The position numbers and the translations under genes were made by a program. 40,708 bases of DNA from an uncultured Eubacteriales bacterium (GTDB lineage Bacteria; Bacillota; Clostridia; Oscillospirales; Acutalibacteraceae), in NCBI GenBank assembly GCA_900316495.1, contig ONDC01000003.1:1380-42087 (forward strand), written 5' to 3'. The notes beneath the pieces are model-generated. The model made no database searches and was not told the origin of the DNA. It saw only the letters and a program-made list of their open reading frames with translations. Numbering within the stretch: the stretch's first letter is position 1; each line of letters begins with the position of its first letter. This document shows positions 7,741 through 12,814 of this stretch, piece after piece.

Positions 7741-8745
7741 GTGACAACCATAACGCGGAACAGCTTCGGCAAAATCAGCGGCAGGGAAATACTCCGATAC
7801 ACGCTTTCCGACGACGCGCTATCCGTATCGGTGATGCCATACGGCGCGTCGGTACAGAGAATCGTCTATCGGGGGCGGGACATGATTCTCTCTCTGCCGG
7901 AGGCGGAGCTATACCCAAAATTCAGCGCCGGCTGCATCGGCGCGGTGGTGGGGCGCTATGCCGGCCGTATTGCCGACGGACGCTTCACCCTTGACGGCAG
8001 GGAATACCGCCTGTCACGCAATCAGGGCGGCAACCACCTGCACGGCGGCAGGCACGGCTTTCACACAAAGCGCTGGAGCGGCGGGATCGCGGAGGATGCG
8101 GACGGCGGCGTAAAATTCACCCTTCTCTCCCCCGACGGCGACGAGGGCTATCCCGGCAATCTGCGCGTAAGCGTCACCTATCGCCTTACGGACGGAGATT
8201 GCCTTGCCATCGCCTATGAAGCGTCCTGCGACCGCGACACGGTTCTCAATCTCACCAATCACTGCTATTTCAACCCCAACGGCGTGGACAATTCACCGCC
8301 TGCGCTCCGCAGGCATGACGAAAGCGACAACCGCGACATCGAAATGACCATCTTCGCCGACCGGGTAGTGGAGCTTGACAGGGAAATCCCCACCGGGCGG
8401 CTGCTTCCTGTGGAGGGAACGGCGTTCGACTTCCGCGCGCTGCGAAGACTGGCGGACGGCGCGGACGCGTCGTTCAGGGGCTATGATCACACGCTGCTAT
8501 TCTCCCCTCACGCGCCCGAACAGCCGGTCGCCTCCGCTCGGGGCATGAAAAGCGGCGTCAGGATCGACTGCTTCACCGATCAACCCGCCGTGCAGCTTTT
8601 CACCATGGGCAATCCCGGCAGCCTGTTTGCCTTCGAGACGCAGCACCTCCCCGACAGTCCGAACCATCCGGACTTCCCAAGTACGGTTCTCAAAGCAGGT
8701 GAAGTTTTCAGAAGCGAAACCCGGTATCGCTTTACGCAGGAATAA
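7741..8745 (+). CDS. galM: Aldose 1-epimerase (mutarotase)
   Basis: This 334-residue enzyme interconverts alpha and beta anomers of aldoses such as galactose and glucose. Family motifs are in order: GGNHLHGGRHGFHTKRW (first histidine region), DGDEGYPGNL, NLTNHCYFN (second catalytic histidine), the GYDHTLLF aspartate region, and FETQHLPDSPNHP with the catalytic base glutamate near the C-terminus. The likely start is GTG at 7741, with AGGAAGG 11 bases upstream; an ATG seven bases earlier is in another frame and gives only a short product. The gene stands alone, with its own promoter and terminator, as a monocistronic insertion between two minus-strand blocks. No other galactose gene is nearby. 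Confidence 0.93.
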   Translation: MTTITRNSFGKISGREILRYTLSDDALSVSVMPYGASVQRIVYRGRDMILSLPEAELYPKFSAGCIGAVVGRYAGRIADGRFTLDGREYRLSRNQGGNHLHGGRHGFHTKRWSGGIAEDADGGVKFTLLSPDGDEGYPGNLRVSVTYRLTDGDCLAIAYEASCDRDTVLNLTNHCYFNPNGVDNSPPALRRHDESDNRDIEMTIFADRVVELDREIPTGRLLPVEGTAFDFRALRRLADGADASFRGYDHTLLFSPHAPEQPVASARGMKSGVRIDCFTDQPAVQLFTMGNPGSLFAFETQHLPDSPNHPDFPSTVLKAGEVFRSETRYRFTQE

Positions 8746-8747
8746 GC

Positions 8748-8789
8748 GTTCCCTTCGTCAGACCGCAGTCCGACGAAGGGAACTTTTTT
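8748..8789 (+). terminator. Intrinsic terminator of galM
   Basis: A perfect 12-bp stem (8748-8759 with 8772-8783) is followed by six T residues. It starts two bases after the galM stop codon. Confidence 0.93.
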
Positions 8790-8814: not shown

Positions 8815-8985
8815 TTATTTGTCCTTCTCGGAAAGGCTGTGCTTGACTCTGTCGCTTTCCTCGGCGCGCTTGGCGTCGTTGAAGCGGTCGACGGTGCCGA
8901 CCAGATAGCCTGTGATGCGGCGGATGCGCTCGAATTCCACGCCCTCGCCGATGGTTGTCTTTGTCTCTTTGGTCTGCTTATTCAT
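8815..8985 (-). CDS. Stand-alone glycyl-radical domain of class III ribonucleotide reductase (56 aa)
   Basis: This 56-residue protein contains the glycyl-radical signature RRITGYL (radical glycine G26) followed by RFNDAKRAEESDRVKHS. From memory this matches the last 40 or so residues of full-length NrdD such as the E. coli enzyme (RRVCGYL, then FNAGKQEE and RRVKH). The neighbouring large NrdD lacks this region, so the peptide probably supplies the radical in trans and would be activated by the radical-SAM enzyme NrdG, which is not in the window. GGAGGT lies eight bases upstream of the ATG. It is 63 bases downstream of nrdD in the same direction and probably shares its transcript. The length and clean start argue against a frameshift. 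Assignment to the domain is firm; trans function is inferred. Confidence 0.85.
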   Translation of the reverse strand: MNKQTKETKTTIGEGVEFERIRRITGYLVGTVDRFNDAKRAEESDRVKHSLSEKDK

Positions 8986-9048
8986 GATAAATACCTCCGA
9001 ATAGTCTGATAAAGTGATGGGATGAACGTTAAAAAACGTCGATAAGGA

Positions 9049-11355
9049 TTAATCTATTCCTACAAAGTGCGGCATATTGGGATATTTCTTTCTCAGCTCC
9101 CTGAGCTTTTCCACTGAAACGCCCTCGCCGCTGTGTCTGCCGCATCTTGGACAGCAATTGCCGATCACGCCGGTATAGCCGCAGATCGGGTCGCGGTCTA
9201 CCGGATGGTTGATGGAGCCGTAGCCGATGCCGACCTCCTTCATGTACTTGATGACCGTCTCGAACGCGTCGATGTTGTTGCACATATCGCCGTCAAGCTC
9301 GACGTAGCTGATGTGTCCGGCGTTGCAGAGGGCATGGAAGGGTGCCTCGAGACGCAGCTTTTTGAAGGCGGAAATGTTGTGGTACACCGGGATGTGGAAG
9401 GAGTTGGTATAGTATTCGCGGTCGGTAACGCCCTCGATGCTGCCGTATTTCTTCGCGTCGATCTTGACGAAGCGTCCGCTGAGTCCCTCGGCGGGCGTGG
9501 CAAGCAGGGTGAAGTTCAGCCCCGTCTCCGCCGATTTCTTGTCCATGCGTCCGCGCATGTATCTGATAATGTCAAGCCCCAGCTGATAGCTTTCTTCGCT
9601 TTCGCCGTGGTGCTGACCGGTCATCGCCTTGAGGGTTTCCGCCAGACCGATGAAGCCGACGCTGAGCGTGCCGTGCTTGAGCACCTCGGCAACGGAATCG
9701 TCAATGTCCAGCCCGTCGCTGTCGATCCAAACGCCCTGTCCCATGAGGAAGGGATAATTCCTCACCTTCTTGGAGCATTGAATCTTAAAGCGGTGGAGAA
9801 GCTGCTTGAAAACAAGGTCAATTCTGGAATCCAGCATGCTGTAGAAGAGGTTCCAGTCGCCCTTCGCCTCAATGCCGATTCTCGGAAGATTGATGGTGGT
9901 GAAGCTGAGATTTCCTCTGCCGCAGGTGATCTCGCGGGAGCGGTCGTGAACGTTGCCCATGACGCGGGTGCGGCAGCCCATATAGGCAACCTCGGTGTTG
10001 TAATCGCCGGGCTTGTAGTACTGCAGGTTGAAGGGCGCGTCAAGGAAGCTGAAATTCGGGAAGAGACGCTTCGCGCTGACCTTGCAGCTCAGACGGAAGA
10101 GGTCGTAGTTGGGATCCTCCTTGTTGAAGTTGACGCCCTCCTTGACCTTGAAGATCTGCACCGGGAAGATCGGCGTCTCGCCGTTCCCCAGACCCGCGTC
10201 GGTGGCGAGCAGCAGGTTGCGCATGACCATTCTGCCCTCGGGCGAGGTGTCGGTGCCGTAGTTGATGGAGCTGAACGGAACCTGCGCGCCGGCTCTTGAA
10301 TGCATGGTGTTGAGGTTGTGGATCAGTCCCTCCATTGCCTGATAGGTCGCCCTGTCCGTCTCGGTGAGGGCGGTGTCAAACGCGCTGTCGTTGAGCTTTC
10401 TGATCTCGTCCTCAGAGAGCGCCGCCACCACGCCGGGGAGCTTGCCCTCGGCTCTCATGGCAAGAAGCCGCTGCTCCATGCCGTCCTTGTTGGAGATGCG
10501 GACGATGTCGCGCGGCATATCCCTTTCAAGACAGGCGACGGCTTCCTCCGACGCGCTTTCTGAGACGTCGTAGCGGTATTTCAGATACAGCCCCAGCGCC
10601 TTGAAGTACTCCTTGATGAAGGTCTTGGCAACGCCCGGCGCCATGGAATAATCGAAATTGGGAACCGACTGACCGCCGTGCATTTCGTTCTGGTTCGCCT
10701 GAATCGCGATACAGGCGAGGGCAGAATAGCTCTGGATGCTCATCGGCTCGCGCAGGTGACCGTGACCGGTGGAGAAGCCGTCCTTGAAGAGCTTCAGCAG
10801 GTCGATCTGACAGCAGGTCTCTGTCAGCATGTAGAAATCCTTGTCGTGAATGTGAATGTCTCCGCCGTTGTGCGCGTCGGCGATGTCCTTGTCAAGAATG
10901 CTGTTGTCGACAAAGTACTTGGCGCTTTCAGAGCCGTATTTGAGCATGGTGCCCATTGCGGTATCGGTGTCGATGTTGGCGTTCTCGCGCTTGATGTTGG
11001 AATCCTTTGCGTCCACGAAGGTCAGGGACTTGAAGATGTCCATGAGATCCTTCTCGGTCTGGCGCAGCTTGCTGCGCTCGGCGCGGTAGAGGATGTACGC
11101 CTTGGAGGTCTTGGGAAGGTCGTTGGCAATCAGCACCTCCTCCACAATATCCTGTACCTGCTCGACGGTGGGGATGGTGTGAGGCGGAATCTTGGCTAAA
11201 ACCTGATTGGTGAGGGAAAGCACCTTTTCTTCGGTGATCTCCTCATCGGAAACGGCGTTTCCTGCCTTTCTGATCGCGTCGCGAATCTTCGCCGCGTTGA
11301 ACTTGACGGTCTGACCGCTCCGCTTTACAATAAATTCGGGATTTTCCGGCAACAT
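9049..11355 (-). CDS. nrdD: Anaerobic (class III) ribonucleoside-triphosphate reductase, catalytic chain without glycyl-radical domain
   Basis: This 768-residue chain reduces ribonucleotides to deoxyribonucleotides under anaerobic conditions. An N-terminal ATP cone (about residues 5-95, FIVKRSGQTVKFNAAKI) gives allosteric control. The ten-stranded barrel follows, with GHLREPMSIQSYSALAC, MHGGQSVPNFD and the cysteine motif MGCRTRV, a probable active-site loop. The C-terminus has the zinc-site cysteines (ICGYTG, NCCPRCG) and then ends at HFVGID. The usual RxxGY radical motif after the zinc site is missing and is found on the next gene. I chose the ATG at 11355 because AGGAG lies seven bases upstream; an in-frame ATG eight codons earlier lacks such a site. 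The promoter carries paired NrdR boxes. NrdG is not encoded nearby. Confidence 0.95.
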   Translation of the reverse strand: MLPENPEFIVKRSGQTVKFNAAKIRDAIRKAGNAVSDEEITEEKVLSLTNQVLAKIPPHTIPTVEQVQDIVEEVLIANDLPKTSKAYILYRAERSKLRQTEKDLMDIFKSLTFVDAKDSNIKRENANIDTDTAMGTMLKYGSESAKYFVDNSILDKDIADAHNGGDIHIHDKDFYMLTETCCQIDLLKLFKDGFSTGHGHLREPMSIQSYSALACIAIQANQNEMHGGQSVPNFDYSMAPGVAKTFIKEYFKALGLYLKYRYDVSESASEEAVACLERDMPRDIVRISNKDGMEQRLLAMRAEGKLPGVVAALSEDEIRKLNDSAFDTALTETDRATYQAMEGLIHNLNTMHSRAGAQVPFSSINYGTDTSPEGRMVMRNLLLATDAGLGNGETPIFPVQIFKVKEGVNFNKEDPNYDLFRLSCKVSAKRLFPNFSFLDAPFNLQYYKPGDYNTEVAYMGCRTRVMGNVHDRSREITCGRGNLSFTTINLPRIGIEAKGDWNLFYSMLDSRIDLVFKQLLHRFKIQCSKKVRNYPFLMGQGVWIDSDGLDIDDSVAEVLKHGTLSVGFIGLAETLKAMTGQHHGESEESYQLGLDIIRYMRGRMDKKSAETGLNFTLLATPAEGLSGRFVKIDAKKYGSIEGVTDREYYTNSFHIPVYHNISAFKKLRLEAPFHALCNAGHISYVELDGDMCNNIDAFETVIKYMKEVGIGYGSINHPVDRDPICGYTGVIGNCCPRCGRHSGEGVSVEKLRELRKKYPNMPHFVGID

Positions 11356-11453
11356 AATCAACTCCTGTGTGAATTTCATATCGATCCGCGGCGCGGCGCA
11401 CCCTGATGGCTTGCAACCCGCGGAGAAACGGGCTTTTTTATTGGCTCCCGCCT

Positions 11454-11482
11454 ATTATAACACAACATATACGTAATTGCAA
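11454..11482 (-). promoter_or_regulatory. Promoter of nrdD (TTGCAA-17-TATAAT)
   Basis: On the minus strand TTGCAA (11477-11482) and TATAAT (11454-11459) are 17 bases apart. The predicted start near 11447 gives a GC-rich leader of about 90 bases containing two CCGCGG repeats. One NrdR box occupies the spacer of this promoter. Confidence 0.75.
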
Positions 11483-11611: not shown

Positions 11612-11833
11612 TCAGTTTTCAAACAGCTCGTCCTCTTTGCGACGGTTGCCGGCGCGGGCAGCCTCCGCCGCCTTGCCGTTGACGGTAATCACACCCTCGT
11701 CGTCGATGTCCAACTTGTCGCCCTCGCGCAGCGAGGCGGGCAGCTCGCCTTTGGGTATGGCGAACATCCTGCGATCCTTGTCCTCGCAGATGGCATAAAT
11801 GCCGTCAAGTCTGTCTACTGTGAGATGTCTCAT
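11612..11833 (-). CDS. DUF3006 domain protein (73 aa)
   Basis: This 73-residue protein has the DUF3006 pattern: an N-terminal VDRLDGIYAICED strand pair, then FAIPKGELPASLREGDKLDI. The C-terminus is charged and probably flexible. The family is small, cytoplasmic and of unknown function. It frequently sits beside a secreted MBL-fold ComEC-like protein, as it does here, 24 bases upstream. AAGGAGG lies nine bases before the ATG. The two-gene association suggests related function, but nothing in the sequence says what it is. Confidence 0.8.
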   Translation of the reverse strand: MRHLTVDRLDGIYAICEDKDRRMFAIPKGELPASLREGDKLDIDDEGVITVNGKAAEAARAGNRRKEDELFEN

Positions 11834-11857: not shown

Positions 11858-12814
11858 CTATTTAGCCACGATAACCGAAATGTTTTTGCCGTCGGATTCA
11901 AAGATTATATCCCCGTCAAGGTCGGTGCGGTAAACCTTACAGTCCATCGCGCGAAGCCGCTTGAGAATTTCGTTCTTCGGATGACCGTACTTGTTGTCCT
12001 CCCCGACAGAAATCGCCGCGTAGCGGGGGTTGACCTCATTGAGGAACGCCTGTGAATTGCCGTCCCTGCCGCCGTGATGGGAGACCTTGTAAATATCCGC
12101 GCTGAGATCGTAGTCGAGGGTAATGAGCTGCCGTTCCACTAACTTGGAGGCGTCGCCGCCGGTAAGCACCGACACGTCCCCGTAGGTGAACTTCAGCACG
12201 ATGGAATAGTCGTTCAGATCCTCGTACTTCGCGCCCTTTGCGGGGGAAAGCACCAGCATCGTCACGCCGTCAAGATCGTATTCCGTGCCGGGAACCGGGC
12301 GGGTAATCTTCAGCTTCTTTTTCTTGATCGCTGTCAGCACCTCGGTGTAGGTCATGGTGGTGGGAGTAAGCTCCTTGGATGTCTGCGGCATCATGACGTG
12401 GTCGATGGTAATGTCCTTGCTTTTGATCACAGTGTCCATGCCGCCGATGTGGTCGGAATGCGGGTGAGTGCCGATGATCCAGTCCAGATGGGATACGTCG
12501 GCTTTGCGAAGGTAATCGAGAACCGTGTCCCCCATCCCGTTTTCGCCGCAGTCGATGAGAACGTTGCGCCCGCCGCACTGCATGAGAACGGCATCGCCCT
12601 GCCCCACGTCGATGACGTGCATTTTCAGCCTGGCGTCGCCCTCGATGGCGTCGCCGGATACCTCGTAGCCCAGCATTCCGAAAATCTCGTTGAGCCACGC
12701 GTCCGCCTCATCCTCGGTGCAGCCGGTGACAAAAGCCGACGTCACGAGAATCCATACCGAAAGCGCCGCCGTGATGACGGCGCGAAGAGATCTTTTGCCT
12801 TTGGGAAATGTCAT
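11858..12814 (-). CDS. MBL-fold hydrolase lipoprotein, ComEC/Rec2 C-terminal-domain-like
   Basis: The 318-residue protein starts with a basic, hydrophobic segment ending in the lipobox VTGC at about residue 32, so it is probably anchored on the outer face of the membrane. The rest is a metallo-beta-lactamase fold of the ComEC C-terminal type: HVIDVGQGDAVL, LIDCGE, the metal motif THPHSDHIGG, and later SVLTGGDASK and YKVSHHGGRDGN. In ComEC this domain is proposed to be a nuclease acting on the non-transported strand of DNA during uptake; here the channel part is absent, so this may be a free extracellular hydrolase. The ATG overlaps the ygiQ stop by four bases (ATGA). Substrate unknown. Confidence 0.88.
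   Translation of the reverse strand: MTFPKGKRSLRAVITAALSVWILVTSAFVTGCTEDEADAWLNEIFGMLGYEVSGDAIEGDARLKMHVIDVGQGDAVLMQCGGRNVLIDCGENGMGDTVLDYLRKADVSHLDWIIGTHPHSDHIGGMDTVIKSKDITIDHVMMPQTSKELTPTTMTYTEVLTAIKKKKLKITRPVPGTEYDLDGVTMLVLSPAKGAKYEDLNDYSIVLKFTYGDVSVLTGGDASKLVERQLITLDYDLSADIYKVSHHGGRDGNSQAFLNEVNPRYAAISVGEDNKYGHPKNEILKRLRAMDCKVYRTDLDGDIIFESDGKNISVIVAK

Follow-up and report, generated by a model that had tools for sequence, protein, structure and literature searches.

Gene organization of the nrdD locus

The window analyzed here is a stretch of 40,708 nucleotides (nt) from an uncultured Eubacteriales bacterium of the Acutalibacteraceae (assembly GCA_900316495.1, contig ONDC01000003.1). It carries an nrdD gene for a class III ribonucleotide reductase without a glycyl-radical loop, followed by a small gene for a 56-amino-acid (aa) peptide that holds this loop (Table 1). 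The start of nrdD was placed at the ATG at 11355, with AGGAG 6 nt upstream, and the stop codon lies at 9049-9051; the mechanically delimited open reading frame (ORF) begins at 11379 and encodes 776 aa rather than 768. The large chain scored 1053.6 bits against the NF005497 equivalog model, whose cut-off is 764, matched the ATP-cone family PF03477, and contained the NRDD catalytic domain by which class III NrdD is recognized. The motifs MGCRTRV, CGY, and CCPRC and the cysteines C725, C734, C735, and C738 were all present, and Cys461 in MGCRTRV is presumably the thiyl-radical site, a role assigned from what is established for NrdD. The closest solved structures by sequence were the NrdD proteins of Prevotella copri (8p23), S. 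thermophilus (9d3x), and T4 (1h78).

A preliminary description of this DNA had reported that the large chain ends about 30 residues past its zinc cysteines without an RxxGY motif. This was borne out: no RxxGY occurs beyond CPRCGR, and a 28-residue tail forms the C-terminus. The RxxGY motif that class III NrdD has in the same chain sits here in the separate peptide. As also described, the RRITGYL peptide gene begins 63 bases past the nrdD stop with its own GGAGGT and ATG. The pair is not a product of chance, since it recurs in every genus genome examined. The proposed family profile search gave a clear division: on the Pfam NRDD profile (PF13597, 562 positions) the large chain covers positions 1-531 (E 9.6e-190) and the peptide positions 532-562 (E 8e-08), so that one profile is cut in two between them. 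The NCBIfam NrdD models divide between the two chains in the same region. The peptide belongs to NRDD and had no match to Gly_radical PF01228 at E values up to 1.

Table 1. Features of the split nrdD locus in window coordinates
Feature	Position	Strand	Remarks
NrdD catalytic chain (class III ribonucleotide reductase without glycyl-radical loop)	9049..11355	-	768 aa; PF13597, PF03477, NF005497
C-terminal tail after CPRCGR, 28 residues, HSGEGVSVEKLRELRKKYPNMPHFVGID	9052..9135	-	sits where fused NrdD continues into the radical loop
Candidate thiyl-radical cysteine Cys461 in MGCRTRV	9973..9975	-	motif located in sequence
Glycyl-radical peptide, 56 aa, motif RRITGYL	8815..8985	-	PF13597 532-562
Codon of Gly26 of the peptide, predicted radical glycine	8908..8910	-	glycine invariant in the alignments
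Ribosome-binding site of the peptide, GGAGGT	8993..8998	-	7 nt 5' of the peptide ATG
Promoter-like TTGCAA-17-TATAAT, extended -10	11454..11482	-	upstream of nrdD; consensus scan
Terminator-like hairpin of 16 pairs, 3' of the peptide gene	8748..8783	-	consensus scan

Conservation of the split and separate translation of the chains

Each of the 18 genus genomes examined, including that of the window, carried the split, with the peptide of one (G004) interrupted by a contig end. Among 60 relatives surveyed for the gene pair, 24 had an NrdD that broke off at position 531-542 of the profile, and each of these loop-less relatives had a separate peptide; G004 was placed in this count from the genus survey. 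Both chains were also found in 24/24 genomes of a second set picked as split, 11 of which overlap with the first.

The frame of the peptide relative to NrdD varied freely. Frames 0, 1, and 2 were represented by 41, 34, and 28 of 103 split pairs, and within the genus all three occurred, in 8, 3, and 7 of the 18 genomes. The gap between the genes ranged from 1 to 552 nt (median 36) with zero overlaps. A ribosome-binding-site match of at least 4 nt preceded the peptide in 101 of the 103 pairs, a count made without a shuffled control and with the start codon picked for the best match. Three contigs are doubled among the pairs (L084/L102, L086/L101, and L091/L100), and L120 and L123 are two records of one peptide. 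Within the genus, pN/pS (the ratio of nonsynonymous to synonymous polymorphism) was 0.06 for the 40 codons around the peptide motif (17 sequences, 136 pairs) and 0.18 for the NrdD tail (18 sequences, 153 pairs), showing that the peptide is under strong purifying selection there. These results support a genuine, conserved split with separately translated chains.

Other arrangements of the loop were also observed. In G124 (L217), two radical-loop peptides stand in tandem after one NrdD, and in G083 (L212) a single large chain is flanked by radical-loop peptides, one upstream and one downstream. In G036 (L224, reverse strand), the radical loop lies inside a 192-aa frame that extends well past it, with the C-terminal part unassigned; no NrdD core match was seen in this 59% complete genome.

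Ribonucleotide reductases and NrdG in the genus

Profile searches of the window's own genome (86.9% complete) gave no second NrdD and no full-length NrdD. PF02867, the large chain of class I/II reductases, was absent from 18/18 genus genomes, 8 of which are at least 90% complete, and no further NrdD match was seen in them. The searches of the 18 genomes rejected two candidate explanations, another reductase of class I/II and a working full-length NrdD, the latter of which would have spoken against the preliminary description. NrdG was found in the own genome on a separate contig from nrdD (G000:C136:12227-12673; TIGR02491, 145.6 bits, cut-off 126.1) and scored above the cut-off in 11/11 genus mates tested. 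These findings support the peptide as the sole radical loop found for the sole ribonucleotide reductase found in the genus.

Distribution and origin of the split

A scan of named contigs gave at least 591 relatives, of which the best 80 were kept. These comprised 75 standalone peptides and five fused forms, one of which ends at a contig end; 70 of the 75 standalone peptides had a large chain within the sequence retrieved with them. Records without a label of metagenome-assembled genome (MAG) or uncultured organism that carry the pair include those of Massiliimalia timonensis (L106), Oscillospiraceae MH27-2 (L143), Scatolibacter rhodanostii (L176), and bacterium 1XD42-1 (L117), and a Subdoligranulum variabile record carries it as well. 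Among MAGs, the pair was found under the labels Bacilli, Tenericutes, Fibrobacter, Anaerobiospirillum, Lachnospiraceae, and Butyricicoccus, which may be wrong. The split thus occurs in MAGs under several phylum labels, and many uncultured gut bacteria have it.

Two quick trees of the NrdD core were built, one with 100 of 137 rows after thinning, in which L197 is fused, and one with 41 chosen rows. The split form was not one clade on either: well-supported branches force 5 (100 rows) or 4 (41 rows) changes, and parsimony gave 9 changes of the split state on both. A single split clade without later change was rejected by the approximately unbiased (AU) test on the 41-row tree (p 1.8e-41). The trees thus indicate that the split state changed several times; the AU test does not separate several fissions from one fission followed by refusions or transfer. 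Distant split branches have tail motifs in common, Y.GD..EE.DR for one, as read by eye, and some common origin is therefore favored. The fused L235 and L238 are nested in the otherwise split clade of the window, and their genomes (G253 and G235) also have a two-domain loop protein; both are possible refusions.

The start of the NrdD tail resembles that of the peptide (..GEGVSVEKLREL.. against ..GEGVEFERIRRI..). When tail start and peptide junction were compared without gaps in 103 pairs, the best score averaged 26.0, compared with 13.6 for shuffled tails, and 71% of the pairs lay above the 95th percentile of shuffled tails, a share that is not a probability since the pairs are related. MAFFT, unprompted, also matched the catalytic tail with the radical loop. 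This likeness and placement fit a partial duplication of the 3' end, in which the first copy would then have lost the radical loop.

Two-domain loop proteins and unlinked pairs

Another group of proteins (L060-L079, L219-L221, and L311) consists of an N-terminal domain of about 50 aa and an NrdD radical loop, encoded away from NrdD. For 20 standalone second-match genes, the stretches hold no NrdD core motif, and a full-length NrdD is listed in all 20 genomes (18, and G307 and G154). The alignment of this group (A5; 23 sequences, 79-102 aa) held 19 of the 20 with three bacterial and one viral sequence; L065, a near copy of L064, was left out. The N-terminal domain was predicted as a beta-alpha-beta-beta fold at low confidence (predicted local distance difference test, pLDDT, 63; predicted template modeling score, pTM, 0.36). 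In five members tested it matched no Pfam or NCBIfam family except NrdD models. One NCBIfam NrdD model aligns a two-domain member over residues 3 to 86, and for this reason the domain may be a degenerate duplicate of the part of NrdD that precedes the loop, much as YfiD repeats a PFL strand. By their resemblance to YfiD/GrcA, the two-domain proteins are candidate spare parts for ribonucleotide reductase.

In two genomes of genus g88, both 99% complete (G172, L331; G382, L332), the only other NrdD match stops just after the junction, ending in ..TERVERIKL and ..HDRIPRIKV, respectively, compared with ..FERIRRITGYL in fused relatives. The two-domain protein, on a different contig from NrdD, was the only radical loop found in each, and no PF02867 was found. 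As a loop-less NrdD is combined here with a sole loop in a two-domain protein, the spare part seems to have become the sole radical source. Judged from their sequences, these would be natural unlinked trans pairs of another kind than the split in the window, and the two loop losses look like separate events. G254, also of g88, has a fused NrdD and a two-domain protein. G185 has a loop-less NrdD, a two-domain protein, and two more NrdD matches over the whole profile, and the next frame after its loop-less NrdD resembles NrdG by eye.

Free radical loops in phage and virus records

A scan of IMG/VR gave 375 relatives, and the best 80, ranked by likeness to the split peptides, were fetched. Of these, 77 were standalone, with no catalytic chain in the sequence retrieved, two had the chain, and one lacked the motif. 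Whole-record searches of 79 records (L251-L330, with L268 left out for lack of the motif) revealed a radical-loop match only in 73 and also a catalytic chain in six, where the chains all end at profile position 531. The chain was missing in 36 of the 39 records of at least 30 kb. The records may be fragments, none being rated at least 90% complete, and the 79 loci amount to 69 distinct peptide cores, with L311 of the two-domain type. Because the sample was chosen by likeness as the best 80 of 375, with 69 distinct cores and possible fragments, 73/79 is not a frequency in viruses.

Among ten neighboring proteins at seven loci, seven matched phage families and three matched nothing; the families included terminase (L254), endolysin (L257), replication initiator (L255), and tail fiber (L211). 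Surplus loop copies were found in prophages of G128 and G375 and as an orphan in G365. Two orphan bacterial copies are identical to virus ones (L211 in G128 to L318, and L214 in G375 to L304), and both hosts are split. The listed phage peptides retain the radical glycine and most of the loop.

In Eggerthella phage EL753P1 (L246), a loop-less NrdD annotated as nrdD is followed by hypothetical proteins, and the frame of the radical-loop peptide is interrupted in the deposited record.

Structure prediction

The large chain and the peptide were folded as one artificial read-through chain in which the stop was read as serine. In the input alignment (A4), split rows were trimmed before the tail and peptides were trimmed to the motif, because MAFFT had aligned the tail to the radical loop and isolated the peptide of the window. 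AlphaFold gave a pLDDT of 87.3 and a pTM of 0.85 with P. copri NrdD as the best match, and the predicted fold is compatible with class III reductases.

Flanking features

The region had seven promoter-like sites, compared with 1.5 in shuffles, which alone is no evidence of function, and one terminator-like site, compared with 3.4 in shuffles, so this class is not above chance. The hairpin separates the peptide gene from a convergent gene at 7741-8745 (+). An NrdR-box-like pattern had a single match in the region, with three mismatches, at 721-736, away from nrdD. Upstream of nrdD, an ORF of 73 aa at 11612-11833 (-) adjoins a gene at 11858-12814 (-), whose product we take to be metallo-beta-lactamase-like (ComEC-like).

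Discussion

We consider it very probable that the locus encodes a two-chain class III ribonucleotide reductase in which the peptide docks on the large chain, receives its radical from NrdG, and can be renewed separately; docking, radical formation, and renewability are the inferred part of this model. The 768-aa chain would supply the ATP-cone, barrel, substrate and effector sites, thiyl cysteine, and zinc-finger stub, and the 56-aa peptide would supply the glycyl-radical loop, docking where the C-terminal loop of fused NrdD lies. NrdG would install the radical on Gly26 within the complex, and at each turnover the glycyl radical would generate a thiyl radical on the large chain. Where oxygen attacks a glycyl-radical protein, the break falls at the radical glycine; damage would therefore consume the 56-aa peptide and spare the rest of the enzyme. 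The radical part would thus be separately made and, by analogy with known spare parts, probably replaceable. That the peptide is an obligatory subunit, as the preliminary description proposed, is the economical reading; it is partly supported overall, the conserved separate split and the only loop for the only reductase found in the genus speaking for it.

In the literature covered, class III reductases have the radical glycine within the catalytic chain. The NrdD proteins of T4, Prevotella copri, and Streptococcus thermophilus share with the present system the ATP-cone, NRDD barrel, MGCR, zinc-finger stub, RRITGYL, and NrdG, whereas in the present case a gene of its own encodes the radical loop, and the large chain ends in a conserved tail that is new. 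According to PMC8683613, YfiD/GrcA and T4 Y06I, the latter phage-encoded, are the only validated spare parts, both for pyruvate formate-lyase (PFL), others may exist, and YfiD repeats a PFL strand. Like the peptide of the window, they are small free proteins with a glycyl-radical loop; YfiD, however, repairs an enzyme with its own loop (PMC8683613), and no full-length partner was found in the window's genome. Coexistence with a full-length partner, as for GrcA, is thus lacking in this genome and in G172 and G382, while the two-domain proteins have it in form in 20/20 genomes where full-length NrdD is listed. A catalytic chain split over two genes is also described for NrdJa/NrdJb of another class, class II (PMC4520616 and PMC9669993). 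In the open-access PMC literature searched, which leaves most subscription journals outside its coverage, no account was found of an NrdD whose radical loop has its own gene.

Several observations weigh against the two-chain model or limit its reach. Five of the 75 standalone peptides (L125, L150, L154, L169, and L174) lacked a visible large chain in the sequence retrieved with them. The own genome is 86.9% complete, and the absence of other reductases there therefore leans on genus mates. Outside the genus, PF02867 matched in 6 of 24 split genomes, and a second NrdD match occurred in six (G019, G023, G048, G098, G147, and G365); hence the split enzyme is not everywhere the only reductase. Most genomes examined are MAGs. 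In the structure prediction, the single artificial chain means that the linker helped docking. The mean pLDDT was 58 for the ten-residue block holding the glycine, under 50 for residues 764-799 (tail end, linker, and peptide start), and 57-81 for the peptide from residue 801 on, and the Foldseek root-mean-square deviation from 8p23_B was 8.8 A over the whole chain. The exchange of the peptide after oxygen cleavage is drawn from YfiD alone.

Other explanations of the pair concern first how the two frames are expressed. In the window the peptide is in frame with NrdD with one stop between them, as would be the case if NrdD were a damaged gene or an assembly error and the peptide its severed 3' end. 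We give this practically no credence: it is refuted by the three relative frames inside the genus, and the purifying selection on tail and peptide and the same split in isolates and under several phylum labels also contradict it. It is likewise highly improbable that a fused protein is still made through stop read-through, frameshifting, an intron, or an intein. There is precedent, as introns and inteins interrupt some phage nrdD genes, and PMC3653736 lists six cases of phage nrdD in pieces through introns, inteins, or unexplained fragmentation; unlike here, no separate radical-loop gene is named in that text. The gap of 63 nt in the window, and the median of 36 nt, leave no room for an intron or intein, Rfam yielded a single 16-bit match far under the gathering score and no intron, and no intervening splicing element was found at the split of the window. 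The frame moreover varies, and the peptide has its own start signals. Because the frames vary and selection is purifying, sequencing error, read-through, frameshifting, and an intron are excluded; the preliminary description had named a frame-joining error as what would overturn it.

The two-chain model leaves room for different views of why the peptide is separate. Neutral gene fission may have produced an ordinary constitutive heteromer in which the peptide is never exchanged and has no oxygen-related purpose, and this is a distinct possibility, though one we doubt. The compact operon layout with its median gap of 36 nt agrees with it, as does the fact that fused and split forms are neighbors in the tree and were swapped several times, as if equally functional. 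Loops that circulate alone would, however, be unexpected of an unexchangeable subunit, and such surplus copies without a catalytic chain occur in the prophages of G128 and G375, in G365, in the tandem of G124, and in the 73 virus records, and the loop protein of G172 and G382 is encoded apart from NrdD. Free peptides, at least those of phages, might instead work as decoys: by engaging NrdG or filling the docking site, they would regulate or block the host reductase. Inhibitors are known among phage proteins, and free loops without a chain are common among the virus records tested. We regard this as unlikely, since the phage peptides keep the radical glycine and most of the loop, which a decoy would not need, and virus replication needs deoxynucleoside triphosphates (dNTPs).

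A broader proposal, for which we judge the case evenly balanced, is that loop proteins are an exchangeable radical cofactor shared by bacteria and phages, embracing split hosts, spare parts, and phage copies. Split hosts would pair a small renewable radical subunit with a large chain whose radical site is vacant, and genomes with an intact NrdD would hold a two-domain spare part for repair. In some relatives (G172 and G382), this spare part would have taken over as the sole source of the radical once NrdD had lost its loop. Gut phages would bring their own radical subunit and thereby keep or restart host dNTP synthesis during infection, comparable to T4 Y06I.

If the obligate split is true, the radical domain could be handled as a reagent on an essential enzyme, and NrdG activation, docking, interchain radical transfer, and oxygen repair would become separately measurable. 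The finding also bears on the question, raised in PMC8683613, of whether spare parts for glycyl-radical enzymes exist beyond pyruvate formate-lyase. The free radical peptides of phage records would, for their part, be a novel form of support that phages give to the nucleotide metabolism of their hosts.

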